Source: Sinohyriopsis cumingii
Lineage: Eukaryota > Mollusca > Bivalvia > Unionida > Unionidae
NCBI GenBank assembly: GCA_028554795.2
Contig: CM068835.1
Span: 56,349,219-56,413,218 of the forward strand
DNA: 64,000 nt
Direction of reading: 5' to 3'
Both the position numbers and the translations under genes were made by a program. Shown here one piece after another: positions 45,606-63,810 of this stretch. Within the stretch, counting starts at the first letter, position 1; each line of letters opens with the position of its first letter. The notes under the pieces are model-generated. The model was not told the origin of the DNA, did not search any database, and saw only the letters and a program-made list of their open reading frames with translations.

Positions 45606-45642
45606 CTCTTTTCGAGAAATATGGCTGGCCCTGAAAAGGGCC
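45606..45642 (-). terminator. Histone-type 3' end signal (stem-loop plus purine element) for the 77-codon gene
   Basis: On the minus strand a GGCCCTTTTCAGGGCC hairpin (45642-45627) begins 24 nt after the stop at 45667. It has the 6-bp stem and four-base TTTC loop of replication-dependent histone mRNAs. The 3' flank reads AGCCA, not the canonical ACCCA. The purine-rich GAAAAGAG (45613-45606) follows 13 nt later, where the U7-binding histone downstream element should be. No AATAAA lies nearby. Confidence 0.75.
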
Positions 45643-45666
45643 TTTGGGTTTATGTTAATGTATCTA

Positions 45667-45900
45667 TCAACATAAAGGGCACCGCATTGGTCTTCTTCTT
45701 GTCCTTAGGCTGCGTCTCACTGTCGGCCCGTAAATCAGCACTCTTTTGAGGCATCCTTGGCTTTCAACGTAGATCCTACGTATCCACAGACTGGTGTTTG
45801 TCCTGTGGACAACGGTCCACTTGGATCGGACATACATGAGCATGTCCGTCCTGAACATCATGGAAGACACAAGCGTAGAAGATTGCACATCGGTCCACAT
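45667..45900 (-). CDS. Small basic protein, unknown function (77 aa)
   Basis: This short gene is supported by its transcription signals more than by its product. A TATAAATA box lies at 45952-45945, the ATG follows about 45 nt later, and a histone-like hairpin begins 24 nt after the stop. The product has no recognised domain. Its C-terminal third is strongly basic (RRSLRTRRRPMRC) with two closing Cys, so nucleic acid binding or nuclear localisation is possible. A second, 34-codon frame starts at an ATG at 45753 and is less likely. The gene diverges from the 46120 gene across a 219-bp promoter. Confidence 0.5.
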   Translation of the reverse strand: MWTDVQSSTLVSSMMFRTDMLMYVRSKWTVVHRTNTSLWIRRIYVESQGCLKRVLIYGPTVRRSLRTRRRPMRCPLC

Positions 45901-45944
45901 CTTGAAGCGACGAGAACAGGTGAATCAATGCAGTGAACTGCGCT

Positions 45945-46071
45945 TATTTATAGGTAGAGGTAGGATTGAAACGGATTGAGTTCATTCACCAATCCGAACA
46001 CGCGTTACAAAATTCAGTCAGCCCGCATCCAATTCGAAGAGAGCAGTCTGTGACGTCACGTAGTCTATATA
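45945..46071. promoter_or_regulatory. Bidirectional promoter with TATA, CCAAT and CRE elements
   Basis: The 219 bp between the two divergent ATGs hold a minus-strand TATAAATA (45952-45945) and a plus-strand TATATA (46066-46071). CCAAT motifs lie near 45989 and 46030, and a perfect palindromic CRE (TGACGTCA) at 46051-46058, 7 bp before the plus TATA. Paired TATA boxes with CCAAT motifs recall divergent histone H2A-H2B promoters. Both transcripts also end in histone-like hairpins. Confidence 0.65.
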
Positions 46072-46119
46072 GATTCGCTAGCGCTTGTGTGCAGTCAATC
46101 TATGCGACAGTGATTCAAC

Positions 46120-46674
46120 ATGACGGAAACTCAGAAAACGATCCATTGGGGTGCACCAACAGGGGAAACTGCCCAAGGGAACCCGGACTTACTTTCAGAA
46201 GAGGTGAATTGGGATTTTGTGGATTTTCTCTCCTCGCAAGAATTTGTTCCGGAACCTTCGTTACCTTCTTCATTACCGCAAGTGGAGAATTTTAGAGAGA
46301 GACAGAAAGAAGAATTGGAGAAATTTATACAACGACAAAAGGAAGCGGAACAGGCTTTTCTCCTACAGCAACAGCAGCAAGAAGAAGAGGTAAGAAAAAA
46401 ACAACAGCAAGAAGAAGTAGCAGCAAAGAAACAGGAGGGTGAAAATCAAACGGTCACGGTACTGTTGGACATTTTAGCGGAGTTAAGAAGTCTGAAACAA
46501 ATGTATCAGACTTCTTTATTACGACCAAAGAGAATACGACCTTCCCTAGCTAAACACGTCAACCCTGTGACTAAGCCTACCGTACCACCCTTAGTGATTT
46601 CAACCCAATCATCATCATCAACATTACGCCTTGGCCGTGGCAAAGGCATAAGGCAGTTAAAGTTGATTGCTTAA
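46120..46674 (+). CDS. Gln/Glu-rich coiled-coil protein, unknown function (184 aa)
   Basis: The ATG lies about 50 nt after the TATA box. Residues 1-55 are acidic and aromatic. Residues about 60-105 form a charged, Q-rich coiled coil (ERQKEELEKFIQRQKEAE), followed by a possible leucine-zipper-like helix near 115-130 (VLLDILAELRSLKQM) and a basic, Ser-rich tail. No enzyme motif is present. A DNA-binding or scaffold role is possible. The mRNA appears to end at a histone-type hairpin 27 nt after the stop. A second small Q-rich gene at 63238 has a similar layout and the same kind of 3' end. Confidence 0.7.
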   Translation: MTETQKTIHWGAPTGETAQGNPDLLSEEVNWDFVDFLSSQEFVPEPSLPSSLPQVENFRERQKEELEKFIQRQKEAEQAFLLQQQQQEEEVRKKQQQEEVAAKKQEGENQTVTVLLDILAELRSLKQMYQTSLLRPKRIRPSLAKHVNPVTKPTVPPLVISTQSSSSTLRLGRGKGIRQLKLIA

Positions 46675-46700
46675 ACGTACCCCTACACCAAAATAAAAAG

Positions 46701-46739
46701 GCCCTTTTCAGGGCCACCCACATTTCTCGAAAAGAGATA
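46701..46739 (+). terminator. Histone-type 3' end signal for the coiled-coil gene
   Basis: A perfect hairpin GGCCCTTTTCAGGGCC (46701-46716) is preceded by AAAAA and followed by ACCCACA. This matches the histone mRNA pattern, in which SLBP reads the stem, loop and flanks. The purine element GAAAAGAGATAG begins 14 nt after the stem and has the AAAGAG core expected to pair with U7 snRNA. There is no AATAAA between the stop and the hairpin. Confidence 0.8.
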
Positions 46740-46878
46740 GCCCTTCAATTTTGCCAATAACTCAAAAAAATAGCCCACCCATTTTACCCTTATAGTACGT
46801 GTCTTTTTTGTATGAGTGCGTGAGTGTACGTTCTTATTTTAAAATCAAAACTCAAAGACACTTACCTTATATCATTAA

Positions 46879-46884
46879 TTTATT
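46879..46884 (-). terminator. Polyadenylation signal of the zinc-knuckle gene
   Basis: AATAAA on the minus strand, about 75 nt after the stop codon at 46960. This is an ordinary poly(A) signal, unlike the histone-type ends of the neighbouring genes. Confidence 0.65.
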
Positions 46885-46959
46885 CTTTTATCCATTGTTA
46901 CAATCCAATTCACAATTCACAACAGAACACTTTAATTAAAAGTTCTTCTGTTTCCTTGT

Positions 46960-47430
46960 TTAGTCTCTCTGTTTTTTGAATTTCTTCACCGTTTTTTCCT
47001 CATTTTCTTCCCTTCTTCTTTTCTTCTCCTGTTTCTTTGCCTCTTTTAAATAGAATTGTCTTCTTTCTTCCTCTTCTTCCTCTGAAGAATCCCTCTCTTC
47101 TTCCGAAGAATCCCTCTCTTCTTCTGAAGAATTCCTCTTTTCTTCTGATTCCTCTTGTTTCTTTTTGGGGCAATCTGGAGACCAATGTCCTTTTTCTTTA
47201 CAATAATAACAGGTATCTTGACTTTTGTCTTTTTTAGCCCCTGTTTTTTTTTTTTTTTGACGGTCTGGACACTCTGAAGACCAATGCCCTTTCTTCTGAC
47301 AGATATAGCAAGTATCTTGACTTTTATCTCGAAAGGAAGGAGAGTAGTCCGTGGGTTGGTCTGAAGAGAATTTTCTAATGACCCCTCGCAGAGCTCTGAC
47401 GAAACGTTCCATCTGAGTAGTCTCTTCCAT
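46960..47430 (-). CDS. CCHC zinc-knuckle protein with acidic and basic tail (156 aa)
   Basis: The start is the ATG at 47430; the longer frame upstream would need a GTG. Two CCHC knuckles are clear: CYICQKKGHWSSEC and CYYCKEKGHWSPDC, each C-x2-C-x4-H-x4-C, a fold that binds single-stranded RNA or DNA. Next comes a Ser/Glu tract with repeated SSEEERD units, probably phosphorylated by casein kinase 2, and then a Lys/Arg-rich tail with nuclear-localisation-like KKRRR and KKFKKQR. The gene diverges from the polymerase gene. The two ATGs are 118 bp apart, with a TATA-like CATAAAAAG at 47492-47484. A nucleic-acid chaperone or RNA-binding role is inferred. Confidence 0.7.
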   Translation of the reverse strand: MEETTQMERFVRALRGVIRKFSSDQPTDYSPSFRDKSQDTCYICQKKGHWSSECPDRQKKKKTGAKKDKSQDTCYYCKEKGHWSPDCPKKKQEESEEKRNSSEEERDSSEEERDSSEEEEEERRQFYLKEAKKQEKKRRREENEEKTVKKFKKQRD

Positions 47431-47483
47431 CGTTGTGCTCGGCTTGAGAGTGAAATGAATAGTGAAAGGACAAGACACACACC

Positions 47484-47500
47484 CTTTTTATGACTATAAA
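47484..47500. promoter_or_regulatory. Back-to-back TATA boxes between zinc-knuckle and polymerase genes
   Basis: The plus strand has TATAAA at 47495-47500 for the polymerase gene, and the minus strand has CATAAAAAG at 47492-47484 for the zinc-knuckle gene. Both lie about 48-55 nt from their start codons, so the two core promoters almost touch. Confidence 0.5.
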
Positions 47501-47548
47501 TTAGTCTATGGTGTTTAAACTTGAGTCATTTGACGTTTTGTACTCAAG

Positions 47549-50500
47549 ATGAAACGAGCCAATTCATTCGAGAAGAAAGAAGAAGAAAGTAAGAGGCAGA
47601 AACGTGATCTATCGCCTCGTACCAGGGCTGAAATCTTGGCACAAATTCATGCCAGTGATTTTGAAGAGGACATGAGTGAACCAGAATTTGAAACCTCTAA
47701 ACCAAGTTCACCACCCTTAGTCAACCCTGAAAAATACTATTCCATTCGAGAGACGGAAAAGCGCTCCTCTAGAAAATTTAGAACCACGGCTTACACCTAC
47801 ACGGTGAAGTTTAAAGATTTCAAGGCCGACGTACCCTTGGAGAAAGCAGAAGGGTTCATCACCGAGATGTGGGATTCTTTGCTCACCGCACTCAAGCGAC
47901 AATGTCAACCCAAAGAAGACGATTTCTTGACACTATCCATAGATCACGACGGTTTGAAATCCCCTGTTTGGATCGAGTTTAGCAGACCCGCAGAACTAAC
48001 CCCTTCCAAAGTCATGGACAAGATTCAACACGTACAACAATCTAATGACCAGTTTGACATCACCGATGGTAAAGCCACACTGAAAATGGCCCACGTCTCT
48101 CTTCCTCAAGGGACTGGACGCAAAAAGATGTTATTGGTGGACGACCTTCGCAACACCAAAACAAGTCTCGTCCGAATTAACAACCCTCAAGACCAGATGT
48201 GTTTAGCTCGAGCCATCGTGGTGGGACGAACCTATGCCAACAAGAACGACACGACAGAATGGAAAAGAGCCTGGAAAACTATTCGACAATCGGACCGAGC
48301 CAAACAACGAAACGAAGCAGAACTCCTGTTGCAACAAGCTGGTCTGTCCAAAGACACACCCTGTGGCATTCCTGAGATGCAGAAATTGCAAGATGCCCTA
48401 GCTCCACGCTACACCTTGAAAGTGCACCTTCAAGAAATGCGTGGGTCTCTGTTGTTTCGAGGGCAAGATTTTAAGGACGGAAAATACATTCACCTTTATC
48501 ATCACGATGACCATTTCGATACCATTACCAGTATCACTGCATTCCTGCGATACGGTTATTATTGTGAGAAATGTGATTATGGTTATAACAATCGAGAGCA
48601 ACACAAGTCTTGTGAATCGAAATGCCGAGGATGTTTGGCCTCTCCACCCTGTCTGAGCGAAGAACCAGTGCCTTGTTCAACTTGTTTGCGCACGTTTGTC
48701 AGCCCTACCTGTTCCCAACAACATCTGAAGACGCAAGGTTCACAGCAGAAATGTGATTGTCAACTGCTGAGATTGTGCCCTACGTGTGGACAAGGCCTAC
48801 GTACCAATAATGTCAAGGCACACGTATGTCGAGGAAAGAAAAAATGTCACATTTGTCACCACGTCGTGGACTTGGAACACCAATGCTACGTGCAAAAATA
48901 CCAATCTCCACCAGAGAAAGAGGACGGTCACAAGAAGAAAGGCAATTTCATCTTTTTCGATTTTGAATGCATGCAAGAGACCGGCATTCACATTCCTAAT
49001 TTCTGCGTGGCTCATCGAGAGTGCGAGAAGTGCATTCAAGAACCTATCTTCAGTCATTGCCCTCACTGCAGCAAAATTCCCGGAGGGCGTGAAAAAATCT
49101 TTCGGGGACCGAACACGTTAGCCGATTTTGCCCAATGAGTCTTAGATCCCATCGACAAGACGTGGAGCCAAGAGGACATCGAACGTTACGGAGATTGTCA
49201 TCGTCATGCCACGGTGATGGCTCACAATTTCTCCGGATACGATGGACAGTTTCTTTTGAGGTACTATACGGAACAAGGCACCGAACGTCCTAAAGTGACT
49301 TTGAACGGAGCCAAAATCATTTTCATGCAAGTGGGACAAGTGCATTTTAAAGATTCGATGAGTTACTTGGCCATGCCTTTGAGTCGAATGCCTGAAACGT
49401 TTGGAATGACAGAAATGGCTAAAGGGTACTTTCCATACTTTTTCAATACGGAAGCCAATCAACACGCCGTTCTACCCTATTTGCCCGAGGCTCACTATTA
49501 CGACCCCGACAACATGCGTACCGAACAACGAGAAGCTTTCTACGCTTGGTACCAGGCTCACGCCTCGGACCCCTTCGACTTTCAGGAAGAAATGTCAAAG
49601 TAGTGTCGTTCCGACGTGGACATTTTACGGCGTTGCTGTAGAAAATTTCGAGAATTATTCATGGAACACGGAGGGGTCGATCCTCTAAAAGAAGCCTGCA
49701 CCATTGCCAAAGCGTGTTCCTTAGTGTACCGCCAACGATTCATGCCTGAAAACACCGTGGCTGTCATCAGTCCTCAAACAACTAACTATGTCAAGCGTCA
49801 ATACTAGGTCAAAGCCCTACGTTGGTTACATTACTTGTGCGACAAGGAAGATAAATGGATTCAGCATGCCCGCAACGGAGGAGGCGAAAAGACCATCGGA
49901 ACGTATTCGGTCGATGGCTGGGACTTAGAAAACCCCAAGATCGTGTACGAATTTAACGGTTGCTTATTTCACGGATGTCCCGTCTGCTACCCTGACCGTG
50001 ACACTAAAAATCAGTTTTTACAACGGACCATGGAAGACTTGTACCAGGACACTTGTCAGCGACGCCTAAAGTTAGAACAGCAAGGATACCAAGTGGTGAA
50101 AATGTGGGAAAACGAGTACGATCACCGTATGAAAACCGATCCCGAGTTTAAAGGCCTCGTGGAAAGTTACCAGTTCATGGACCCGCTGAACCCGAGGGAT
50201 AGTTTGTACGGAGGAAGGACCAATGCCACCTGTTTGCTGTACCAAGCCGACGAAGAGAAAGGAGAAGAAATCAAATACTTGGACGTGTGTTCGCTGTATC
50301 CCTACGTGTGCAAATATTGTCGCTTTCCGGAAGGGCACCCGCAATTGCTGACGGAACACATCGACCTGAAAAACATTCGACAATACGAAGGCTTGATTAA
50401 GTGCAAAGTTTTGCCTCCCACGAACCTATACCATCCCGTCTTACCTCACCATTGTCAAGGCAAACTGATGTTTCCCTTGTGCCGTACTTGTGCCGAAACG

Positions 50501-51583
50501 TGCAACCAAGACCAACCTTGTCAGCACAGCCAGGAAGAACGGGCCTTGACGGGAACCTGGGTCAGCGTAGAATTGTTCAAAGCTCTGGATATGGGATACC
50601 AGCTGTTAGAAGTGTACGAAATTTGTCACTTTCCTAAGACACAACAATACCACAAGGGTGACCCTACTCAGAAAGGCGTTTTCGCCGACTACGTGGATGC
50701 CTTTTTGAAACTGAAGCAAGAAGCCAGCGGCTATCCTTCCTGGTGTCACACTCCCGAAGACCAAATAAAATTCAAAGAGAAATACTACGAACAAGAAGGC
50801 ATCACTTTAGACCACATCGAGAAAAACGAAGGCAGGCGATCGTTTCCCAAAGTGATGTTAAATTGCTTGTGGGGTAAAATGGCACAACGACCATGTCTAC
50901 CCAAGACGGAATATTTGACACAACCTTCCCGCTACTTCCAGATGATTCACGACAAAACCAAATACATGAAACACGTGGACGTCGTTCGAGAGGATTTGAT
51001 CTTGGTCAATTACGAAGAAGATCTGGACTTGGTACAAGACGACCCTTTTGGAAATGTCATCATTGCGGCTTACGTGACAGCCCATGCTCGCTTAAAATTG
51101 TACGAAGCTTTAGAACTGTTAGAAGAACGCGTCCTGTACTTTGACACGGACAGTTGCATCTACATCCATCACCCGATTCAACATCACCCTGACATCGAAG
51201 GAGACCGTTTAGGAGCCTGGACAGATGAGCATCCCGACGACAAGATTCTAAGTTTCGTCAGTGGTGGTCCCAAAAATTACGGCTACGAATACCGTGACAA
51301 ACAAGAAGTGCACACGACGTGCAAAGTGAAAGGACTGACTCTGAATCATCGTACCAGTCGAGTGGTCAACTTTGGGGTATTGAAAGAAGCCTTGCAATCG
51401 GGAGAGGATGGAAACTTTAAAGTGACCACCTATCAACCGAACAAGATTGTACGTTTACCCACTCACCACATCGTCAGTCGACCCTTGGAAAAAGTCTATC
51501 AAATCGTGTACCAGAAGCGAGTTCGACTTCCCAATCATTTCACCTTACCGTATGGACACGTTGGTATAAAACATTGGTTGTAA
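47549..51583 (+). pseudogene. polB: Protein-primed DNA polymerase B (pPolB), interrupted by three in-frame stops
   Basis: This replicative polymerase copies the linear element from a protein primer. One frame runs the full 1344 codon positions. Order: Ser/Lys-rich N-terminus; unknown domain; cysteine cluster at about 340-460; 3'-5' exonuclease with FFDFEC (about 470), HNFSGYDGQF (about 557) and a third exonuclease segment near 686. Then come the YEFNGCLFHGCPVC region (about 820), polymerase motif A YLDVCSLYPY (about 912), motif B KVMLNCLWGK (about 1102) and motif C YFDTDS (about 1198). Stops lie at 49136 (TGA), 49601 (TAG) and 49805 (TAG), all between the first and third exonuclease segments or just after, with no change of frame. 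All polymerase motifs lie downstream of the last stop. Confidence 0.92.
51565..51571 (+). promoter_or_regulatory. TATA box of the first BIR gene
   Basis: TATAAAA lies inside the last codons of the polymerase gene, about 75 nt before the BIR start codon at 51645. A short upstream frame begins at an ATG at 51608. Confidence 0.5.
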
Positions 51584-51644
51584 GAGGATAGTTACCCTAC
51601 CAGAAAGATGACTTCGCCACAGCAAGAATCGAGTGAGAAACCCG

Positions 51645-52016
51645 ATGAGAACTCCAAGTTCAAACCCTACCACGTTTCAGAAATGGCCTACGGATAGGGA
51701 AGGATTACCTTCTTCGCATGTTTTAGCTAGAACAGGATTTGTCTACTTGGGACCTGAGTCAGGATTGGGATACGAGGTACAGTGTTTCGCTTGCGGACTG
51801 AAGTTACGAATGGATCTATGTATCTATAAAGATTCAGCTATTCTGGAACATACTCGATGGTCTCCGCACTGCCCTTACCTTTCTATGGCCTTTCCACCCA
51901 TCACACTACGGTACAATGTTGACGGTACCTTAGAGACGGTACCTTCCAGAACAGGACATAAAAAACGTAAAAAAGGAAAGATGTACAAGCTGGAGACTGC
52001 ATTGCGACTAGTATAA
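51645..52016 (+). CDS. Single-BIR protein without RING (123 aa)
   Basis: A BIR fold spans residues about 10-75. It has FQKWPTDREGLPSSHVLART, then GFVYLG, the zinc ligands CFAC, the H in LEHTRWSPHC and the final Cys. This is the arrangement used by IAPs to bind caspases or IAP-binding peptides. A basic tail (KKRKKGK) follows and no RING is encoded. The Trp usually found between the second Cys and the His is absent, replaced by a seven-residue longer loop. The upstream ATG at 51608 opens another frame of 29 codons, so initiation may be leaky, or an indel has moved the original start. Inferred role: block of host cell death. Confidence 0.82.
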   Translation: MRTPSSNPTTFQKWPTDREGLPSSHVLARTGFVYLGPESGLGYEVQCFACGLKLRMDLCIYKDSAILEHTRWSPHCPYLSMAFPPITLRYNVDGTLETVPSRTGHKKRKKGKMYKLETALRLV

Positions 52017-52020
52017 AAAG
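52012..52020 (+). promoter_or_regulatory. TATA box overlapping the stop of the first BIR gene
   Basis: TATAAAAAG, whose internal TAA is the stop codon of the preceding gene. The next ATG is 63 nt after the box start, leaving a leader of about 30 nt. Confidence 0.6.
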
Positions 52021-52074
52021 GGGCTATGGTCAAGATCGATAGTTCATTGTGACTACCAAGACCGAGCGAACAAG

Positions 52075-52812
52075 ATGAATACTTTGAAAGAGACATCGTT
52101 CCAGTTTGGGGATTGTAAAACAGTTGTATCTTCCTCTAGTGTGACTAATATTGGATGGATAAGACCCAGGCATTGCGACGGAAAATGTCCGGAAGGAAAC
52201 TGCGATTGTCCATGTGGTTACCATTGTAATTGCGTAACGGAGTTTGCAGACGAGCGCGATTGTGAGCCTTGCGATGGATACGATGCTGTACCTTGTGACC
52301 TGAGCGATGCCGTAAAGCATCATGGGAACTTTAGTGTCCCTACCCCTATCATGGAAAGTGATGCTGTGCGTGTCAAACCTGAGGGATGCGAAAGCGATGC
52401 CGCTCGTCCTCTTAGACATTTTACCGGGTTTAAAAGGGAATGTTCACCTTCACGTCTACCCCCCTACGGATGTCATCCAGCCCTGAGCAAACACCTGTTC
52501 ATGTCACCCAACCCTCATCGAAACGAACCTGTGAAAGACGAATATTCGTTTCCTGTGCGTTTGTCGGAATACTGCGACTTTGAAAATCGTCTTCAATCGT
52601 TCAAAGGAAAATGGCCTAAGTATCTGGGAGGACCGACCCCCGAAGAATTAGCCAGAGCCGGATTTTTCTACTTGGGCGAAGGAGATAAAGTCAAGTGCTT
52701 CAGTTGCGGTGTGTCACTTCACCACTGGGAACCGCAAGATTCGGCCTACGTAGAACATGCTCGATGGTCACCGAATTGTCATTACTTACCCTTAGTGGGA
52801 CCGAGACATTGA
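52075..52812 (+). CDS. Cys-rich protein with C-terminal BIR domain (245 aa)
   Basis: Residues 30-90 contain a dense Cys cluster (CDGKCPEGNCDCPCGYHCNC) likely to bind zinc; I do not recognise its fold. Residues about 170-240 form a complete BIR: FKGKWPKYLGGPTPEELARA, GFFYLG, CFSC, the conserved Trp, EHARWSPNC and HYL. All four zinc ligands and the WP and GF landmarks are present. There is no RING, so any ubiquitin ligase activity would need a partner. The gene follows a second, more divergent BIR gene and precedes three F-box-like genes, an accessory block apparently aimed at host apoptosis and ubiquitin pathways (inference). Confidence 0.85.
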   Translation: MNTLKETSFQFGDCKTVVSSSSVTNIGWIRPRHCDGKCPEGNCDCPCGYHCNCVTEFADERDCEPCDGYDAVPCDLSDAVKHHGNFSVPTPIMESDAVRVKPEGCESDAARPLRHFTGFKRECSPSRLPPYGCHPALSKHLFMSPNPHRNEPVKDEYSFPVRLSEYCDFENRLQSFKGKWPKYLGGPTPEELARAGFFYLGEGDKVKCFSCGVSLHHWEPQDSAYVEHARWSPNCHYLPLVGPRH

Positions 52813-52840
52813 AGTAACTTCTTACCATAATAATCTGTTC

Positions 52841-53296
52841 ATGGATACTTTACAAGAGAACATTCGTGCTTTGCCTGTGGAGTTGAGAGAACGCATTTAC
52901 CGAGAGCTGGTCAAAATACAAGTGAAACGTAAAGAACGATTGCATCCGTTACGTCACCGGTGTTTGAACCACTGGTACCTGAAGGCTATACAAGGACTGA
53001 TTCAATTGAAAGTGTTCCATAGGACAGACATTGATCAACGATCCTCTAGTTTTAAAAAGGCTTGGTTCGGTATGGACGATTGTAGGTACATCATTGTAAA
53101 CGTACTGCATCGAATTCCAGAGGAAGAGTTAACGAATTACCAACATCTTGAACACAATGTCAACTTAGTGAAAGAGGAAACTTCTGAACGAATTGTAATG
53201 TGTAGATTAGTGACTCAACGATTTAAATTCGACACTGAAGTAAAACCATGTTTGTGCAAAGAGTACATTTCTTGTGTCAGACCAAAGAGGATTTAG
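52841..53296 (+). CDS. F-box-like protein, copy 1 of a tandem family (151 aa)
   Basis: The N-terminus, MDTLQENIRALPVELRERIY, reads like an F-box or F-box-like (2EXR-type) helix pair, with the LP-x-ELRERIYREL core. F-boxes bind Skp1 and bring targets to cullin-1 ubiquitin ligases. The remaining 120 residues share W-Y-L, YQHLEHNV and KEETSERI segments with copy 3 and have no other recognised domain. No clear TATA box precedes it, so it may be translated from a longer transcript. Function is inferred from the short motif only. Confidence 0.6.
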   Translation: MDTLQENIRALPVELRERIYRELVKIQVKRKERLHPLRHRCLNHWYLKAIQGLIQLKVFHRTDIDQRSSSFKKAWFGMDDCRYIIVNVLHRIPEEELTNYQHLEHNVNLVKEETSERIVMCRLVTQRFKFDTEVKPCLCKEYISCVRPKRI

Positions 53297-53308: not shown

Positions 53309-53581
53309 ATGGATACTTTGCTAGGGAACATTCGTGCTTTGCCTGTGGAGTTGAGAGAACGCATTTACCGAGAACTGATCAAAATACAAGTGAAACGCAA
53401 ACTCAAAGTGATTCATCCGTTTTTAGATTATGCTATGTTCCAAAGTACAAGAAGACTGATTATGAGTGGATATTACATTAGGCACAAAGTTAAACGAGGC
53501 TATTGGCCACCACCCAACGATTCCAAAAACAGTGTATATACTTATGGATACTTTACAAGAGAACATTTTGGGCTTGCCTGA
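53309..53581 (+). CDS. F-box-like protein, copy 2, truncated (90 aa)
   Basis: The first 32 residues are almost identical to copy 1, including the LPVELRERIYREL core. It then diverges and ends at residue 90, and its last 38 nt overlap the start of copy 3 in another frame. It lacks the central W-Y-L and YQH segments. It is probably the product of duplication followed by deletion, perhaps by unequal recombination, and may not be functional. Confidence 0.5.
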   Translation: MDTLLGNIRALPVELRERIYRELIKIQVKRKLKVIHPFLDYAMFQSTRRLIMSGYYIRHKVKRGYWPPPNDSKNSVYTYGYFTREHFGLA

Positions 53582-54059
53582 GGAGTTGAGAGAAAGGATT
53601 TACCGAGAGCTGGTGAAAATACAAGTGAAACGTAAAGAACAATTGCATCCGTTAAGTCACCAGATCTTTAAGCACTGGTACCTGAATGGTATAAGAGAAA
53701 TGATTCGTCAGAAATTGTTTCAGTGGTCAGACCTTGTTCAATACTTCCAGGCCCCCGATGATCCACGTGTTGATCATTTTGGTTACTTCGAGATTCACCT
53801 AGAGCAACGCATTGAGGAAGACGAGGTAAAGGATTACCAACATATTTTCCGTGGAATCTACTTAGCGGAAGAGGAAACTTCTAACCGAAATCTGAAGTTC
53901 AGGTTACAGTATGCAAGATTTACATTCCCAACTCGAGAACGAAGATCACTGGCTAGAAAGTACGTGTATTGCTTCCGAAACAAGGAGACTATAAAAACAG
54001 GCTGCCATGCCACGACTTATGTCGTATGTAATCCAACAGATTCCGTGGAAGGAACTTAA
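53544..54059 (+). CDS. F-box-like protein, copy 3 (171 aa)
   Basis: The ATG at 53544 is chosen because the upstream extension lacks similarity, while MDTLQENILGLPEELRERIY matches copies 1 and 2. It shares the HWYLNGI segment, YQHIFRGIYLAEEETSNR and a basic C-terminus with copy 1. A TATATA lies about 15 nt before the ATG, too near to be a normal promoter for it. Same proposed role as copy 1. Confidence 0.6.
   Translation: MDTLQENILGLPEELRERIYRELVKIQVKRKEQLHPLSHQIFKHWYLNGIREMIRQKLFQWSDLVQYFQAPDDPRVDHFGYFEIHLEQRIEEDEVKDYQHIFRGIYLAEEETSNRNLKFRLQYARFTFPTRERRSLARKYVYCFRNKETIKTGCHATTYVVCNPTDSVEGT
53990..53997 (+). promoter_or_regulatory. TATA box inside the F-box-like copy 3 gene
   Basis: TATAAAAA. 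A transcript from it would begin near 54020, at or just after the first ATGs of the 74-codon frame (54007, 54019). It may mainly serve the 54222 gene. Confidence 0.4.
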
Positions 54060-56409: not shown

Positions 56410-56598
56410 ATGTCACCTCCAAGAAGCCAAAAAAGACAGAGACAAAGGCATACGCGTCATCCGACAAAGCGCTTAGCCAAGCATCGACATTACCCTAAGA
56501 AAAGACACAGTCGTTCCAAGAAAAAGAGGCGTCAACAAAGGGGAGGATTCCTTGGCGATTTTGGGAAAAACATTGTCACCTTTATGACAAAGCGATAG
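56410..56598 (+). CDS. Protamine-like small core protein, pX/mu-like (62 aa)
   Basis: Residues 1-42 are almost entirely Arg, Lys, His and Pro or Ser. They are followed by QQRGGFLGDFGKN and a short hydrophobic end. This resembles precursor core peptides of adenovirus-like viruses, which condense DNA and are trimmed by the viral protease. QRGG/F at residues 43-47 fits the adenain-type cleavage pattern (small set of residues, X, Gly, Gly, cut). The size is normal for such proteins. The start follows a TATA box by 49 nt. Confidence 0.65.
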   Translation: MSPPRSQKRQRQRHTRHPTKRLAKHRHYPKKRHSRSKKKRRQQRGGFLGDFGKNIVTFMTKR

Positions 56599-56680
56599 TC
56601 CCAAAAAAGACAAAAGGGTGTGTGTTAAGTCATCGACGTTAGTGTCTGCTTGGTGAATGTCCGGGAACCCACAAGCAAAG

Positions 56681-57068: not shown

Positions 57069-57074
57069 AAAGGC
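57065..57074 (+). promoter_or_regulatory. TATA-like box overlapping the pX-like stop
   Basis: GATAAAAAGG with the TAA stop of the pX-like gene inside it, 53 nt before the ATG at 57118. Confidence 0.5.
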
Positions 57075-57117
57075 CTTCAGAAGTCCCAAGATCTCAGAAT
57101 TGACCCCTGACAACCCC

Positions 57118-57696
57118 ATGGAAGGACGAAAACTAGCTTTAGTGCCTTACAAACGATGGATGGAATACCATCGGTGGCAAGAACAACGTACCCGGCATTT
57201 ACCTCCCAATCCCAATTTGAGCGAGATGTCCCAGTTACAACACGAATTGCAGTCCTTGATGGATCGCCAAGATTTGTCTGAAACAGAAAAATCGCAAAAG
57301 TACGGTCAACTCTTGCAACGATTGCAACTCTTTCACCAGAAAGCTTTAGACGAAACAGCTCTACCCACTCTGCAAGGTTTTAAGACCTTGATGAAAAGTC
57401 CAGCGCCATCACCAGTACCAGTACCAGTACCAGTGACCAAGACAGAAAAAGGAAAAGAAGAAGAAGAAGAAGAATGGTTTCAAACTCCACCAGAAAAAGT
57501 ACGCAAGTTAACAACACCACCTACCTCCAGAATTGGATGGATTAAAAAGATGATGGCCACCCCTTCTTCCTCACAAGAGAAAAAGAAAGTGAAGACAGAA
57601 GTGAAGACAGAAGTGAAACAAGAACCGATATCCCCCGCTCAGACATCCTCCTCCTCTTCAACACCTATTGCCGGTCGCACACGCAAAGCATTGTAA
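57118..57696 (+). CDS. Conserved Maverick protein of unknown function (192 aa)
   Basis: The start MEGRKLALVPYKRWMEY and the following helical segment (SQLQHELQSLMDRQDLSETE, then QKYGQLLQRLQLF) match a small, widespread Maverick protein family usually encoded between the core gene and integrase. Its role is not known to me. The second half is disordered, with Pro-Val repeats (PVPVPVPV), a Glu tract, and Lys-rich KVKTEVKTEVKQE repeats that resemble SUMO consensus sites. The gene is intact, preceded by a TATA-like box, and ends about 75 nt before the integrase ATG. Confidence 0.7.
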   Translation: MEGRKLALVPYKRWMEYHRWQEQRTRHLPPNPNLSEMSQLQHELQSLMDRQDLSETEKSQKYGQLLQRLQLFHQKALDETALPTLQGFKTLMKSPAPSPVPVPVPVTKTEKGKEEEEEEWFQTPPEKVRKLTTPPTSRIGWIKKMMATPSSSQEKKKVKTEVKTEVKQEPISPAQTSSSSSTPIAGRTRKAL

Positions 57697-57772
57697 TCCA
57701 AGAAAATACCCCAAGAGAAAAAGAGTAGCCTCTTCCAAGAGTGGGTGCCTTATTAACACACAAACACAAAAA

Positions 57773-58878
57773 ATGGAAAATGTCTTAGACAGCATTTACT
57801 ACGATCCCTCGCATCCTGCAGGTTACGCAGGAGTTCAAAAATTGTATCGTGCTGCCAAAACTCGACTGAAAAGTCTCCGTTTACCTCAAGTGCAACGATG
57901 GTTACAAGAACAAGCTACCTACACTTTACACAAACCCATTCGACGCAAGTTTGCCAGAAGTCGCACCCGAGTGGAAGGCATCGATCATCAATGGCAAGCC
58001 GATTTAGCCGATGTCTCTCATTTGGCCAGCTACAATCGTGGCTACAAATATTTGTTTTGTGTCATCGACGTCTTTTCCAAATTTGCCTGGGTCGTGCCCT
58101 TGACTTCCAAATCGAGCAGCGAGTTAGTGCGAGCCCTGCAACGGGTGTTGAAACAAAGCGGTCGTCACCCTCTTCGATGGCAAACGGACAAAGGCACCGA
58201 ATTTCTGAACCAAGCTTTCCAAAAAGAATTAAAGAAACGTGACATTCATTTTTTTACCACCGAGAATCCCGAAACCAAAGCCAGCATCGTGGAACGTTTT
58301 CAACGCACTTTGAAAGAACGCGTGTGGAAATATTTTACGCATCACCACACTCTGAAGTACATCGACATCTTACCGCACCTGGTGCAAGCGTACAACCAAT
58401 CTTACCATCGAAGCATCGGACGTGCCCCGCAAGACGTGACTCCCGACAACGAAGTGCTGGTGTGCGCCTGTTTGGTACGTCCCCGACGAGGGCTGTCCCC
58501 AAGAAAAGTGGAGAGTTGGCCGTAGGAGATTGGGTGCGCATTGGCAAAACCAAACGCACTTTTGACAAAGGTTACTTACCTAACTGGACGACGGAACTGT
58601 TTCGCGTCACTGGACGAGTGTATGGCCGTCATCCTGCCGTCTATAAATTGGAAGACATGAACGGAGAAGTGCTCAAAGGAACGTTTTATTTGCCCGAGTT
58701 ACAACGTGTCACCAAAAAAGAAGACGACGTGTACGACATCGAAAGCATTCTCGAACGCAGAATCCGTAAAGTGGGCAAACGACGTGTCAAAGAAGTCAAA
58801 GTACGTTGGAAAGGATATCCGCCCAGTTTCGATTCTTGGATCGACGCTTTGCAAGTCATCGACTATGAAAAGAAGTGA
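57773..58878 (+). pseudogene. Retroviral-type integrase with C-terminal chromodomain, frameshifted
   Basis: Maverick integrases insert the element into host DNA. From the ATG at 57773: YYDPSHPAGYAGVQKLYRA, QATYTLHKPIRR, then the RNase-H-fold core with D77 (WQADLADVS), D139 (WQTDKGTEF) and E174 (SIVERFQRTLKER), a normal DD35E triad. The first frame ends at 58525. The SH3-like and chromodomain part (GDWVRIGKTKR, then YDIESILERR, VKVRWKGYPPSFDSW) lies in another frame ending at 58878. The switch is between about 58450 and 58480, near the end of the catalytic core. All three catalytic residues precede the break. The chromodomain may direct insertion to marked chromatin. Confidence 0.9.
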
Positions 58879-58883
58879 CCATC

Positions 58884-59297
58884 ATGCCCTTTCACACATC
58901 AGACGCAGCTACGTCGACCACTCCTTCTTCACCCAGTTCTTCTGTGCAAGATTTACAAAAACAACCCTTGTGGGTGTGGTGTGGAGAACGTGTGCCTAAA
59001 ACGCAAATTGTCTTTTTCTGCCAAATCTTCGTGGTGTATTGTGTCATCGGGGCAGCCATCGCCAATTTGAGTTTGCAACAAGGAGACAAACAATTGTGGA
59101 CCATTTTATTGAGCAGTTGCATCGGTTACCTGCTTCCCAATCCCTCCCTGAAATTCTCCTCGAACGGGAACCTTGTGTCCAGTGCCAGTGTCAGTCACCA
59201 CTCCAACAACCACAACCAGAACCCCATTTTGGGCGGAGACACGCCTCTGACGTCCAGTAATATCCCCTCGGACAGCCACAGAACTCTGGAATTATGA
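58884..59297 (+). CDS. Two-pass membrane protein conserved in Mavericks (137 aa)
   Basis: The ATG at 58884 follows the integrase stop by 5 nt. After a Ser/Thr-rich N-terminus, residues about 38-62 (QIVFFCQIFVVYCVIGAAIA) and about 72-90 (LWTILLSSCIGYLLPNP) are membrane segments, separated by NLSLQQGDKQ. The SSCxGYLLPNPS motif is a hallmark of a small membrane protein encoded next to capsid genes in animal Mavericks. ILGGD near the C-terminus could be a protease site. The last 4 nt overlap the penton-like gene (ATGA). Confidence 0.8.
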   Translation: MPFHTSDAATSTTPSSPSSSVQDLQKQPLWVWCGERVPKTQIVFFCQIFVVYCVIGAAIANLSLQQGDKQLWTILLSSCIGYLLPNPSLKFSSNGNLVSSASVSHHSNNHNQNPILGGDTPLTSSNIPSDSHRTLEL

Positions 59298-60225
59298 GTC
59301 ACCAAAACCAATTTTACTTAACCTTACCCAGTGACAGTTCCATGGAGGTGTTTCCCAACAACATGTTGTGCTGTTACACGGCTAAATTACCTCAGGCCAT
59401 CCCCTTAGATCACGAAGCCCATTGGGAAGTGGCTTTAGTAGAAATGATTCACGCGACCCAAGTCCTCAATGTCCTTCCAATCAAAATTATTTTACGGTGG
59501 AAGTTCATGACCCACAATTGCAACAGGAATTGGATAAGAGAACCATACCTGACAAGAAAACCTATAATGAAAGCACTAAAAAGTGGACCTACCACTTGTT
59601 CATTCCCGCAGGCTATTATTTGAGTGGTCATCATTTGGTCAGCGCCATAGCCTCCAGGTTTAATAGCGTGTTTGGGAAAGCTTTCGAGCAGCTCAACAGC
59701 AAAAGTGTCACCATGGAGTACCACAAAGTAGCTCGTCGCTTCTTGATGAAATTTGAGCGGAGTAAAAAAGTGACCATTTTATTTTGTCATGAATTGTTTG
59801 ACATGTTGGGCGGTGACATGGAGCTGAGGAAGAAAGTAGAACAAAAACCCGATTCATCAGGCATTTACGACAACGAGACTTTTGCCAAGTATTTTCGTAC
59901 CCCTGTAGAACTGAACCAAGGACTGAATTTGATCTTTGTGTACTCCGATGTGGTGGAGTACAACGTAGTGGGACACACCTCCGTGCCGTTACTGCGTGTC
60001 ATTCCTTTCAAAGTGGATTCTGCCACGAACGCTGACGAGGAAGGTGGAAACACTTACCACGTCCACCGCGAATTTGTCCATCCTCATTATTTGCCGGTCA
60101 GCAAGTCGTATTTGGACACGGTCAACATTACTATAAAAGGAGATTTGGGACAAAATATTCCATTCACCAAAGGAAAAGTCACGGTGAAACTCCATTTTCG
60201 AAAACGGTTCTCTCACGACTCGTAA
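59294..60225 (+). pseudogene. Penton-like minor capsid protein, frameshifted
   Basis: The single-jelly-roll minor capsid protein sits at the capsid vertices. The N-terminal frame from ATG 59294 encodes FYLTLPSDSSMEVFPNNML, the usual opening strand of Maverick penton-like proteins, then WEVALVEMIHATQ. The rest, including VTMEYHKVARRFLMKF, LNLIFVYSDVVEYNVVGH, LLRVIPF and the final FRKRF, is in another frame ending at 60225. The change of frame is between about 59466 and 59483. The gene is otherwise complete and of normal length (about 310 codons). No A-run is at the break. Confidence 0.85.
60132..60140 (+). promoter_or_regulatory. Possible TATA box for the pVI-like gene
   Basis: TATAAAAGG within the 3' end of the penton-like gene, about 97 nt before the ATG at 60229. 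The spacing is longer than for the other boxes. Confidence 0.35.
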
Positions 60226-60228
60226 GTC

Positions 60229-60648
60229 ATGTATCCAGTGTACCGAGGGGTTGCACGACAGCGAGGACACGGTTTAGGAGACATGTTAAAATCGGCCTTT
60301 CGTTCGGTGGCCCCGGTGTTGAAACCGATGGTGACACGCGGATTGCACGCCTTGAAAGATGCGGCACTGACGCAAGGCAAAGAATTTCTCCAAAATGTCA
60401 TCATCGACAAACAAAACCCTAAAGAAGCCTTCATGAGGGCAGGCAAAAATGTCTTGCTGCAAACGGGTAAAGACATTTTAGGCCGACGAGACGCACCTAT
60501 AAATGCCCTGCACGCTACCGAGTCAGGCATTCAGCAAGGACAAGGCAGAAAGAGACGACGACGAAGAAAACACCCTTTCACCAGACTTCAAGCGAGAAAG
60601 GCCAAGAAAAGAAGAACCGTTCGAGACTTAGACGTTTTCGATTATTGA
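60229..60648 (+). CDS. pVI-like minor capsid protein (139 aa)
   Basis: After MYPVYRGVARQRGHGLGDML the protein forms amphipathic helices (KSAFRSVAPVLKPMVTR) and ends with a very basic segment (RKRRRRRKH) and RTVRDLDVFDY. Small Maverick proteins with the RGHG-LG start and this layout are taken as counterparts of adenovirus protein VI, which links capsid and core and disrupts membranes on entry. QRGH/G at residues 11-15 fits a protease maturation site. The gene is intact and its ATG lies 3 nt after the penton-like stop. Confidence 0.78.
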   Translation: MYPVYRGVARQRGHGLGDMLKSAFRSVAPVLKPMVTRGLHALKDAALTQGKEFLQNVIIDKQNPKEAFMRAGKNVLLQTGKDILGRRDAPINALHATESGIQQGQGRKRRRRRKHPFTRLQARKAKKRRTVRDLDVFDY

Positions 60649-60661
60649 AACACAGAACAAA

Positions 60662-61957
60662 ATGATGCACCGAGAGTCTTGCGCCTGTTCCAAGACGGAA
60701 ATGGATCTGTTTGCCATGCCCCCCACCATGATGACCATGCAAGAATCCCAATGGGTGGAATTTCACCCCGTCTCCTCATTGACCGATTCCGCTCCCATCG
60801 AGTTTGAAATCAAAGGACAACCCGAAGATTACATCGATCTGAATAGCAGTTACTTGTACTTGAAAGTCAAAGTTCTAGATAAGGATAATAGTGAAGTAAC
60901 AGACAGTGAGAATATAGCTCCCGTCAACAATTTCATGCATTCCTTGTTCAGCTCAGTGGACTTGTACTTGAACAACAAACTGGTTAGCAGCAGCATGGAT
61001 ACTTACCCTTACCGTGCCTACCTGGAAAATCTCGTGACGTACGGAATAGATGCCAAGAACACTCATCTCAATGCTTGTGTGCTGTGGGAACCTGACGAAG
61101 CGACCAAGTTTGACAAAAATGACAATGACGGCTTTGAGGAAAGACGAAGCAAAATCCTAAAAGAAAAGAGTTTAGAACTGATGGATCGTTTGCATTTGGA
61201 CATATGGTTGCAAGAGAAATATTTGCTGAACGGGGTCAATGTTCGCCTGAGACTGAATCGCAGCAGTACCGCTTTCCATTTGTTGGCTGATAGTACTGCT
61301 GGCAATCCCAAAAGCAAAATCGAGGAGGCCAAACTCTACGTACGACGCGTGGAAGTGTTACCCAAAGTAGGTAACGACATCAGTCAAACGTTGAGCAGAA
61401 CGACCGCCAAGTATCCCATACGACGCGTGGAAGTGAAAACGTTCACCATTCCCGCTAGCCATCATTCCATGATCGAAGATCATCTGTTTCAAGGACAGTT
61501 ACCCAAACGTTTAATCCTTGGTATGGTCCTGAATTCAGCCTTCAACGGAGCCTTCGGTGAAAATCCTTTCAACTTTCAACACTTCAACGTGAAGAAAATC
61601 GAAGTCAGTCGCGATGGCAAGACCTTGTGTACCCGACCTTACGAACCTGACTTTACCAAGAAGAATTACTTGAGATCGTACTTGTCCCTGTACGAAGCCA
61701 CCGGCCAGTTAGGAACCAACACCAGTCACGGCATTACGTACGAAGATTACGCAGGAGGCTATGCTTTGTGGGCTTTCGATTTCACTCCTGACCAAGGCAG
61801 CGACGAGGGACATTTCCACCCTATAAAATCCGGTCAGATTCGTGTGGAACTTCAGTTTGCAGAACCATTGGACAAGACAGTGAACGTCATCCTGTATGCA
61901 GAATTCGATAATACTATAGAAATCAACAGTTTGAGAGAAGTCATTCTAGATTATTAG
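60662..61957 (+). CDS. Major capsid protein, double jelly-roll (431 aa)
   Basis: This protein forms the hexagonal capsid units. Its start is MMHRESCACSKTEMDLFAMP. Landmarks of Maverick major capsids follow: EFEIKGQPEDYIDLNSSYLY near residue 47, NNFMHSLFSSVDLYLNN near 88, AYLENLVTYG near 119 and the final FAEPLDKTVNVILYAEFDN. The region around 255-330 (VEVKTFTIPA, LILGMVLNSAFNGAFGENPF) is also typical. The frame is uninterrupted and the length close to that of other Mavericks. It stands 13 nt after the pVI-like gene and 5 nt before the protease gene. Confidence 0.93.
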   Translation: MMHRESCACSKTEMDLFAMPPTMMTMQESQWVEFHPVSSLTDSAPIEFEIKGQPEDYIDLNSSYLYLKVKVLDKDNSEVTDSENIAPVNNFMHSLFSSVDLYLNNKLVSSSMDTYPYRAYLENLVTYGIDAKNTHLNACVLWEPDEATKFDKNDNDGFEERRSKILKEKSLELMDRLHLDIWLQEKYLLNGVNVRLRLNRSSTAFHLLADSTAGNPKSKIEEAKLYVRRVEVLPKVGNDISQTLSRTTAKYPIRRVEVKTFTIPASHHSMIEDHLFQGQLPKRLILGMVLNSAFNGAFGENPFNFQHFNVKKIEVSRDGKTLCTRPYEPDFTKKNYLRSYLSLYEATGQLGTNTSHGITYEDYAGGYALWAFDFTPDQGSDEGHFHPIKSGQIRVELQFAEPLDKTVNVILYAEFDNTIEINSLREVILDY

Positions 61958-61962
61958 AAGCC

Positions 61963-63030
61963 ATGGAAGACTGCTATCCCTCTTTACCTAGTGGAGAAAC
62001 TTTGGAGATGAAATGTGAGGAGACCGTGGAAAAAGAAGAAGAAGTGATCATGATGAAATCGAGATGGCCAGAACAAGAAGCCCATTTAGTCTCCTGTTTT
62101 GCCAAACACTTGGTGGAAAAAATGACGGAATTAATGAAGAAAAATTGCTATGGATGTCAAAACGATCATCCCAGTCAAATTCAACACGATAAATGCCTAA
62201 TGTTGAGCCAAGAAGAAAAATTGGACGAGTATCTGGACGAAGCTTGGAGTCTCATCTCGGACAAAGACGTGTTGCACCAGTGGTATAAAGACTTGCGTGA
62301 ACATTCTTGTCCACCATTAACCACTCAAGAGATCCATCGTATCGAAGCTCTCCTGAATCAGAGTGAGGAGACGAAACGAATAAACGGTTACTTGTCAGAC
62401 ATTTTCAAGCAAAAAGTCAGGATCGAATTGACGACTTATTATTACCTGTCAAGAAAAAAACACAAAACAATGGATACCTGGGAACTTTATTACCTTTTGA
62501 ACCACAGTTCGTATACGGCTTCTTGGAATCCTGTCGTCTGTGCTAAAGATGAACTCCCTCATCGCAAACCTAAAGACCATCAAGCTTACGTGATCAACAC
62601 GGACGACAGTCATCTCCCAGGAACCCACTGGGTAGCCGTTTACTTTCCTCAAGAAGGATGTGTGGAATATTTCGATTCGTACGGATTGCCCCCTTTGGAA
62701 GACGATATCATCGACTTTATGAGAAGAAATGCTCAGACCACCCGATTCAATAATGTGAAATTACAAGGCACAGATTCCTTGGTGTGTGGACAGTACTGTG
62801 TGTATTTTCTGCATCATCGCAGCCTGGGCTATTCCTTAGAACATTTAGTGACTCATTTTGATCCTCGTTCTTCTGCTAGAAACGATGTGAAAATAGATCG
62901 ATGGTTTTGTGACCATTATGCTTATCTTTTGTCTCAAGCTAGGAAACGTAGTGTCCATCAATGGCCTAATGATTTACAACAGTGGAAATCACAATTTCAT
63001 TCACAACGTTGTCAGCCCTGTTTAAAGTAG
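61963..63030 (+). CDS. Adenain-like cysteine protease with an N-terminal Cys/His domain (355 aa)
   Basis: The C-terminal half is the maturation protease. HTH-like GTHWVAVYF carries the catalytic His222, VEYFDSYG the acidic residue, and Q268 followed by SLVCGQYCVYFLHH the oxyanion Gln and nucleophile Cys275. These enzymes cut core and capsid precursors. Residues about 38-80 contain CFAKHLVEKMTELM and NCYGCQNDHPSQIQHDKC, a Cys/His motif that I recall as a separate small Maverick protein; here it is in the same frame as the protease, so this looks like a fusion. The gene is intact and ends before AATAAA at 63142. Confidence 0.88.
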   Translation: MEDCYPSLPSGETLEMKCEETVEKEEEVIMMKSRWPEQEAHLVSCFAKHLVEKMTELMKKNCYGCQNDHPSQIQHDKCLMLSQEEKLDEYLDEAWSLISDKDVLHQWYKDLREHSCPPLTTQEIHRIEALLNQSEETKRINGYLSDIFKQKVRIELTTYYYLSRKKHKTMDTWELYYLLNHSSYTASWNPVVCAKDELPHRKPKDHQAYVINTDDSHLPGTHWVAVYFPQEGCVEYFDSYGLPPLEDDIIDFMRRNAQTTRFNNVKLQGTDSLVCGQYCVYFLHHRSLGYSLEHLVTHFDPRSSARNDVKIDRWFCDHYAYLLSQARKRSVHQWPNDLQQWKSQFHSQRCQPCLK

Positions 63031-63141
63031 AATGTCAATTGAGAACAAAATTGTTTGTGATTTGAAAAAATTGTTTGATGTTATATTGTTGGATTATTGT
63101 TAAAAATGTTAGAGTTGTTGTTTAGTGTTAAGTGATTTTTG

Positions 63142-63147
63142 AATAAA
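63142..63147 (+). terminator. Polyadenylation signal of the capsid-protease block
   Basis: AATAAA about 110 nt after the protease stop, followed by a GT/T-rich stretch that would serve as downstream element. Confidence 0.65.
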
Positions 63148-63237
63148 AAATGTTGTGTTTTGAAAAAAATGCCTTTGTGGTTTGTTTAGATATATGAATG
63201 TTGGATTCATGCTCTTTCATTTCTTACTATCCCTCTC

Positions 63238-63741
63238 ATGACACTCACTGAACGTTGCGGCTCGAAAACCGTGTGGGGATGTTTTCCTTCACGTCCGCGC
63301 TTTGACTTTAAGAACCGGGGTTGTTTCCAGTCTAACCATCCATTGTCGACTCATCCTCCTAAGAAGATGTGTTCCAAACTAGCTAAGCTCAACGAAGCCT
63401 ACGTGAAGTTGCATAGGGTCAGACACAGTCTGATACCGAAGCCAGAAGAAATAGAGAATGTGAGAAAGTTAAAAATCACTGAAGACCTGATAGAAGAGCT
63501 CTTCAGAGAAGAAATGAACAGGGAGAAAGAAGAATGGACAGAGAAGTACAGACTTCAGAGACAGCAGCAACAGCAGCAACAGCAGCAACAGCAACAACAG
63601 CAACAGCAGCAGCAACCTGAACCTGACAGAGGCTTTGTCGATTGCCGTATCGACACCAAAGAGTTCTTCTTCTCTTTCCGAAGAAGCAGACCTATCGCCA
63701 GAAAGTCTATCCTCAGAGGACATCGCATTCTTAGAAACTAA
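63238..63741 (+). CDS. Poly-Gln coiled-coil protein, unknown (up to 167 aa)
   Basis: Two starts are possible: 63238, or 63367 (MCSKLAKLNEAYVKLHR), which begins the well-structured part. A charged helix (EDLIEELFREEMNREKEEW) leads into about 19 Gln and a basic tail. No known domain. After the Gln run an alternative frame is richer in Ser and Glu and stays open, but it would read through the hairpin at 63771, so the frame ending at 63741 is preferred. A Q-run length change could also have shifted the frame. It resembles the 46120 gene in layout and shares its histone-type 3' end. Confidence 0.55.
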   Translation: MTLTERCGSKTVWGCFPSRPRFDFKNRGCFQSNHPLSTHPPKKMCSKLAKLNEAYVKLHRVRHSLIPKPEEIENVRKLKITEDLIEELFREEMNREKEEWTEKYRLQRQQQQQQQQQQQQQQQQQQPEPDRGFVDCRIDTKEFFFSFRRSRPIARKSILRGHRILRN

Positions 63742-63770
63742 AAAAGAATGCCATAGCAAACAAAAAAAAC

Positions 63771-63810
63771 AGCCCTTTTCAGGGCTACCCCAATACTCTA
63801 GAAAAGAAAT
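63771..63810 (+). terminator. Histone-type 3' end signal for the poly-Gln gene
   Basis: The hairpin AGCCCTTTTCAGGGCT (63771-63786) begins 30 nt after the stop, preceded by an A-run and followed by ACCCC. The purine-rich GAAAAGAAAT begins 15 nt further on. Compared with 46701-46716 the end pair of the stem is A-T instead of G-C, a paired change that keeps the stem. Confidence 0.75.

Follow-up and report, generated by a model that had tools for sequence, protein, structure and literature searches.

Histone-type mRNA 3′-end signals beside the small terminal genes of a Maverick element from Sinohyriopsis cumingii

Introduction

Why should small genes near the ends of a mobile, DNA-virus-like element be followed by the hairpin and purine-rich element that mark the ends of animal histone mRNAs? 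The question is raised by a stretch of contig CM068835.1 from the bivalve Sinohyriopsis cumingii, 64,000 nucleotides long (the window), which contains the left end of a Maverick element extending from 45301 to 65769 in window coordinates (20,469 bp), with its right end beyond the window. To our knowledge, histone-type 3′ ends are nearly exclusive to the replication-dependent histone genes of animals. In histone pre-mRNA, SLBP sits on the stem-loop and the U7 small nuclear ribonucleoprotein (snRNP) on the purine-rich element, the transcript is cut between the two, and the mature mRNA ends in the stem-loop and a 4-5-nt tail (PMC5636114). SLBP increases ahead of S phase, and the duplex between the purine element and U7 spans about 15 nt (PMC7614891). 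Here, we describe five histone-type 3′ ends on this Maverick, their recurrence in other copies in the host genome, and their identity in format with the ends of the host's own histone genes. From these sequence features we consider it likely that the host SLBP/U7 pathway forms the mRNA 3′ ends of the small terminal genes and that expression of these genes is favoured in S phase.

Five histone-type 3′ ends on one Maverick

The five signals stand after the genes p77m, p184 and p167 in the window and in two regions, g5 and g6, to the right of it, within the stretch of the locus read past the window end that holds the right end of the element (L155; Table 1). Two of the five hairpins lie inside the terminal inverted repeats, one per end (p77m on the left, g6 on the right), and the other three lie outside. 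Because the outermost signals point outward inside the inverted repeats, both ends of the Maverick bear the same 3′-end signal. All five loops read UUUC, and the 3′ flank is of the ACC type, with AGCC for p77m and g6. The combination of hairpin and GAAAAG occurs three times in the window, against once in total over 300 dinucleotide shuffles of it.

The original prediction, made from the letters of the window, had described three 6-bp stems with TTTC loops near the ends of the element. The Rfam Histone3 model (RF00032, gathering score 34) found all three and two more right of the window. The predicted coordinates 45642-45627 and 63771-63786 are correct, and the third set, 46701-46716, is one base off the actual 46700-46715. 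Measured distances agree with those first given: the window hairpins, all in sense orientation, begin 24, 25 and 29 nt past the stop codons (first given as 24-30 nt), and the purine elements follow by 13, 13 and 14 nt (first given as 13-15 nt). The compensating change described for the third stem is also present, pair 1 of that hairpin being A-U in place of G-C. With this covariance model, the p184 hairpin alone reaches the gathering score; the other two in the window, like those of g5 and g6, fall below it, though with small E-values (3.3e-4 or better for all four; those of the three window hairpins are against all 4227 families).

A third block, TTTCAATTTTG or a variant, lies downstream of the purine element at p184, p77m and p167 and may lengthen pairing with U7. 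The block or a variant stands at window positions 46737-46759 and at 855-865 and 1781-1792 of L245, a histone-array locus. The genes themselves appear to be built as cassettes, p167, g5, g6 and p184 having a shared head and a shared tail. A promoter-like block starting TTTTCCTTCACGT precedes p167, g5 and g6 and is found four times at the right end (window 63282; L155 497, 1231 and 1300), and upstream of p184 stand TGACGTCA and a TATA-like box. For p167, the Met matching the likely start is used by six of eight relatives, and one residue earlier in one. The p77m protein is basic with an arginine-rich end; a Pfam scan of it gave no match, and its structure model (predicted local distance difference test, pLDDT, 50) was not used. 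The window also contains a 41-bp inverted pair, 45605-45645 and 46697-46737. A nested transposon repeat was rejected as the source of this pair because the same signals reappear 17 kb away and again beyond the window.

Table 1. Positions of the terminal genes, their 3′-end signals and the element borders, in window coordinates unless L155 is given (ORF, open reading frame; dN/dS, ratio of nonsynonymous to synonymous divergence).
Feature	Position	Strand	Evidence or remarks
p77m, gene for a 77-aa basic protein, outward toward left end	45667..45900	-	ORF; dN/dS median 0.12
Hairpin 1, GGCCCT TTTC AGGGCC, 3′ of p77m	45627..45642	-	Histone3 33.9 bits, E 5.1e-6
Purine element GAAAAGAG, 13 nt past hairpin 1	45606..45613	-	By pattern in 21 of 24 non-trigger copies
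p184, 184-aa gene, divergent from p77m	46120..46674	+	20 protein-database relatives; 150 scored host-genome places
Hairpin 2, GGCCCT TTTC AGGGCC, 3′ of p184	46700..46715	+	Histone3 41.8 bits, E 6e-9
Purine element GAAAAGAG, 13 nt past hairpin 2	46729..46736	+	Loose pattern in gene-chosen copies
Promoter-like block TTTTCCTTCACGTCCGCGC	63282..63300	+	First 13 bases three times more right of window, before g5/g6 regions
p167, likely start MCSKLAKL	63367..63741	+	ORF readable from 63238
Hairpin 3, AGCCCT TTTC AGGGCT, 3′ of p167	63771..63786	+	Histone3 29.3 bits, E 2.7e-4
Purine element GAAAAGA, 14 nt past hairpin 3	63801..63807	+	Within the host spacing of +13/+14
g5 hairpin, right of window	L155 982-1027		Histone3 27.3 bits
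g6 hairpin, within right inverted repeat	L155 1743-1788		Histone3 33.9 bits
Target-site duplication TACGCA, 6 bp	45295..45300	.	Partner right of window, L155 2089-2094
Left terminal inverted repeat, first bases AGTAGTAAAG	45301..45651	.	Inner end contains the 45642-45627 hairpin and purine element

Recurrence of the signals in the host genome

From 589472 first-look candidates in the 2.90-Gb host genome, a Histone3 search gave scores to 75 places, and these do not amount to a census; the window's own hairpins and those of the histone arrays (35.0-39.4 bits, L241 and L245) are absent among the 75. All of these places exceed the cut-off (34.5-45.6 bits). When about 3 kb was fetched around each, the inverted repeat was matched at 75 of 75 (blastn, E up to 1e-10), some of the matches being short (44 bp at L127, hairpin included). 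p184 and/or p77m were matched at 52, and the remaining 23 were taken as right ends, with a match to g5, g6 or the presumed protease gene in 17 and no gene in six. No match to H2A, H2B, H3 or H4 was found near the 75 places. Because these places had been selected by hairpin score, conservation was judged on non-trigger copies, meaning hairpins other than the one whose score led to fetching, and on a sample chosen by gene. Non-trigger hairpins are kept in 25 of 27 p184 and 24 of 24 p77m copies (49/51 left-end hairpins), and the p77m purine element is found by pattern in 21 of the 24. Of the 23 right ends, 21 carry a hairpin of the p167/g5 type, a class within which p167 and g5 were not distinguished, and in 14 the hairpin with A-U for G-C is exact.

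The gene-chosen sample was drawn from a p184 protein search of the host genome, which scored 150 places, 146 of them without an internal stop. Forty were picked by hand down the table before the 3′ ends were viewed, with all four internal-stop places falling among them, and 201 3′ bases were taken for each. The hairpin is present in 40/40 (at least 14 of 16 letters and at least five of six pairs) and is fully paired in 37; a loose pattern finds the purine element in 39, at +13 in 37, +12 in one and +14 in one. Both samples bear out the expectation that the signals would be conserved beyond the window copy. Twenty-nine of the 150 p184 places tie on one score, which looks like a recent large expansion.

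The same format in host histone genes

Host histone genes are arrayed in tandem, one repeat measuring about 8.27 kb; of 662 candidate places, 150 were scored. H3 and H4 end GGCCCTTTTTAGGGCC, with GAAAAGA 13 nt past the stem, at four loci read; in one further stretch, H2B ends GGCCCTTTTCAGGGCC, its hairpin letter-identical to that of the Maverick, and H2A ends GGCCCTTTTAAGGGCC. A further gene, which we take to be H1 from its sequence and without a family call, ends GGTCCTTTTCAGGACC. All five of these host hairpins pass Histone3 (35.0-39.4 bits), and H2A, H2B, H3, H4 and the presumed H1 have the same hairpin frame with GAAAAG at +13 or +14. When the ten host and Maverick hairpins are aligned, a small set selected by signal, 60 of 60 cells are paired, and two pairs differ in both partners: p167 and g5 have A-U for G-C, and H1 has U-A for C-G. 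The two-part signal of the Maverick is also that of the host histone genes, which supports at the sequence level the original interpretation of the hairpins as histone-type 3′ ends.

Histone array and Maverick both consist, in the parts compared, of short open frames each with a hairpin and purine element, and host H2A and H2B, like the Maverick, have the TTTCAATTTTG block or a variant downstream of the purine element. They differ in that the genes ahead of the Maverick hairpins are non-histone, and in the loops, which are UUUC in all five Maverick hairpins but UUUC (H2B, H1), UUUA (H2A) or UUUU (H3, H4) in the host. With the metazoan replication-dependent histone 3′ end (RF00032), the Maverick signal shares the 6-bp stem, the 4-nt U-rich loop, the ACC-type flank and the purine element at +13/+14, whereas here it is found in a mobile element and, in two cases of five, within terminal inverted repeats.

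Constraint on the genes and their signals

p77m retains a frame of at least 40 codons in 49 of 52 copies, with its low dN/dS taken at a median dS of 0.92, and on this evidence of selection it is a real gene; p184 is intact by our own rule in 30 of 51 copies, with dN/dS 0.40 at dS 0.107. Synonymous divergence at the same loci (L125-L200) is far higher for p77m (0.92) than for p184 (0.107), as if the gene at the repeat end were recombining or evolving apart from p184.

Rates on trees for the non-trigger p77m copies, in changes per site, are 0.06 for the hairpin, 0.5 for the purine element, 1.04 for the spacer and 2.06 for third codon positions; with all copies included, hairpin, third codon positions and spacer stand at 0.25, 2.83 and 1.54. 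Among the p184 copies chosen by gene, the sites of hairpin and purine element taken together changed at 0.45 per site and the other 3′ sites at 1.15 (p 0.02 in a permutation test that treats sites as independent and uses classes defined by the analyst). A gap interrupts the signal in one of 41 rows, compared with 15 of 41 rows for the first 40 sites outside it. The p184 coding end before the signal is about equally slow in this sample (0.53 changes per site). Site constraint appears from these rates to be strong for the p77m hairpin and modest or absent for p184.

Probable processing by the host pathway and its alternatives

Because both parts of the signal stand at the host's own distance from one another, it is simplest to suppose that host machinery does the processing: SLBP of the host would bind the Maverick hairpin, its U7 snRNP would base-pair with the purine element, and CPSF73 would cut between the two, leaving an mRNA that stops just past the hairpin and has no poly(A) tail. 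Since SLBP is made for S phase, expression of the terminal genes would be favoured during host nuclear DNA replication, to which these genes are probably tied. We put forward tentatively a wider arrangement: each terminal cassette would join a promoter block to a short frame and a histone-type 3′ end, the outermost of these ends being embedded in the inverted repeats, and the cassettes would form an expression programme of the element's own, like that of histone genes, which times its accessory genes to replication of the host DNA, perhaps with histone locus bodies as the site of expression.

Several observations weigh against this assignment. Four of the five Maverick hairpins score under the Rfam gathering cut-off. 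In the window copy, the g6 frame stays open through its hairpin and the longest g5 frame stops about 90 nt upstream of its own, and because of this mismatch between frame and hairpin g5 and g6 are less certain as genes. The p184 hairpin is not slow: its rate is 1.25 changes per site whether all copies or the non-trigger ones are taken, third codon positions and spacer having 1.22 and 2.16 in the former set and 0.74 and 1.2 in the latter (both tree sets include L151, which has lost its 3′ end). When every p77m copy is counted, the spacer (1.54) changed more slowly than either the purine element (2.12) or the five bases that follow the stem (2.6). These rates lead us to hold the host-pathway reading less firmly. 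A search of the host genome with the U7 model RF00066 gave no match, the control genomes being likewise silent. Histone3 hits, up to E 10, were also lacking from four distant Maverick loci (L001-L004; 27-42% identity in the presumed capsid gene), which come from bacterial bins and three of which are contigs of 8-12 kb. The absence tests little because those three contigs are short and the genes concerned are missing: tblastn at E up to 0.01 found none of p184, p77m and p167, nor any database relative of p184 or p167, in L001-L004. Lastly, p184 of the window copy has an AATAAA 17 nt past its stop, starting 8 nt before the hairpin, and AATAAA lies upstream of the hairpin in 12 of 49 p184 copies.

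The poly(A) signals bear on the alternative that survives best, which overlaps with host histone-type processing and is not exclusive of it: S-phase hairpin mRNAs could be made alongside polyadenylated ones from nearby A-rich signals. Some histone genes yield both hairpin-ended and polyadenylated transcripts. Tailed p184 transcripts are possible in the window copy because AATAAA precedes the hairpin, and the claim that this motif is absent from all three window genes fails for p184. However, neither ATTAAA nor AATAAA lies within 35 nt upstream of the hairpin in any of the 52 p77m copies, and one or the other is found in the 84 nt past it in five of 52 p77m and nine of 49 p184 copies; we regard dual ends as unlikely, if deserving of more weight than the alternatives below. 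The original prediction had also set the hairpin genes against polyadenylated genes elsewhere on the element. This contrast holds for two of the 14 other ORFs, one with ATTAAA and AATAAA at most 100 nt past its stop and one with AATAAA at 111 nt, but not for the remaining 12, which have neither motif within 200 nt of the stop.

The 3′ ends might instead have been captured together with pieces of host histone genes and passively inherited, being irrelevant now. Capture is plausible in itself because the sequence downstream of the hairpin, which takes in the purine element, is similar to certain host ends: for p184, z-scores run from 8.6 with H2A and 7.1 with H2B down to -1.0 with H1, and for p77m they are -0.3 with H2A and 0.0 with H4. 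The likeness fits either capture from a histone gene or common constraint. The p184 hairpin, which changes at the rate of third codon positions or faster, would also be expected of a relic. Passive inheritance nevertheless seems improbable for a Maverick with five separate signals, in which the p77m hairpin is strongly conserved, the distance from hairpin to purine element is 13 nt in 37 of 40 gene-chosen copies, and the p167/g5 class has exchanged G-C for A-U on both sides of the stem, with the exact hairpin in 14 of 23 right ends. That the palindromes act at the DNA level in replication, transposition or packaging, as the presence of one hairpin in each inverted repeat might hint, is very improbable, since three hairpins lie outside the repeats and those of the window are sense-oriented soon after stops, their loops being asymmetric and their purine elements spaced as in host histone 3′ ends.

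Relatives and significance

The protein database holds 20 relatives of p184 and eight of p167. In one of the 20, the metagenome protein P0129 (65% identity, BLASTP), the usual stop is absent and the frame reads on, the other protein records ending at their stops. When the 3′ regions of host copies are translated, they align with the tail of P0129 across both hairpin and purine element; with 200 shuffles per copy for 40 copies, none of the 8000 reached the observed scores. The amino acids of P0129 point to a single change at the stem top, where the partner base is not readable from protein. The signal probably predates the present copy family because P0129 encodes it past the lost stop. In viral contigs, a search with the presumed capsid sequence gave no pattern match, and alignments with capsid, p167 and p184 gave pattern matches with no relative among them. 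A loose hairpin pattern matched at least 120 stretches; among 120 of them, 13 have pairs at the free positions, and GAAAAG is absent from the next 32 bases in all 13; a stricter pattern gave no matches.

The original prediction knew of no account of such ends in Mavericks or adintoviruses, and our search of the literature, in titles and abstract openings and with partial coverage, likewise turned up no description of histone-type ends in Mavericks, adintoviruses or other viral genes. Adomaviruses carry histone-like "Histoid" genes, and one such virus, from a clam dataset, has adintovirus-like virion proteins (PMC11071296). Both cases link animal DNA viruses to histones, but the adomavirus link is one of protein similarity, and RNA 3′ ends are not mentioned in the portions of PMC11071296 consulted. 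If the five ends function as proposed, a pathway associated with histone genes would be open to co-option, Mavericks would gain a direct link to the cell cycle, and viral or transposon use of the histone mRNA pathway would be at hand. It could also explain why some Maverick genes are missed in poly(A)-selected data.

Identity and other features of the element

The criteria for Mavericks, or Polintons, include a family B polymerase, an rve integrase, an A32-like ATPase, a 6-bp target duplication and inverted repeats beginning 5′-AG. By these criteria the element is a Maverick/Polinton of adintovirus-like kind, and its host genome contains many copies. Pfam matches above cut-offs identify DNA_pol_B_2 (PF03175), rve integrase (PF00665) and a Pox_A32-like ATPase (PF04665). 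Both ends start AGTAGTAAAG with TACGCA flanking each side, and the left inverted repeat is 97.5% identical over 355 bp to the inverted L155 1739-2092 (blastn). The element shares its polymerase, ATPase, integrase, target duplication and 5′-AG repeats with other Mavericks and adintovirus-like elements and differs from them in its histone-type 3′ ends. The left inverted repeat contains 46-nt tandem repeats at 45303-45529.

Mavericks are further marked by a double jelly-roll capsid protein and an adenain-type protease. We label 60662-61957 as the putative capsid gene and 61963-63030 as the putative protease gene; Pfam scans of the two proteins gave no match for either. Among the 120 listed of 1389 relatives of the 60662-61957 protein, the molluscs named are Mercenaria, Ostrea, Crassostrea, Saccostrea and Littorina, together with one bacterial bin, and the mollusc proteins among these listed matches bear the name "F54H12.2-like". 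Two genes with BIR (inhibitor of apoptosis) domains lie at 51645-52016 and 52075-52812 by Pfam. To their right, the ORF at 52841-53296, for which Pfam gave no match, and that at 53544-54059 are tandem duplicates with 83% identity over the first 198 nt.

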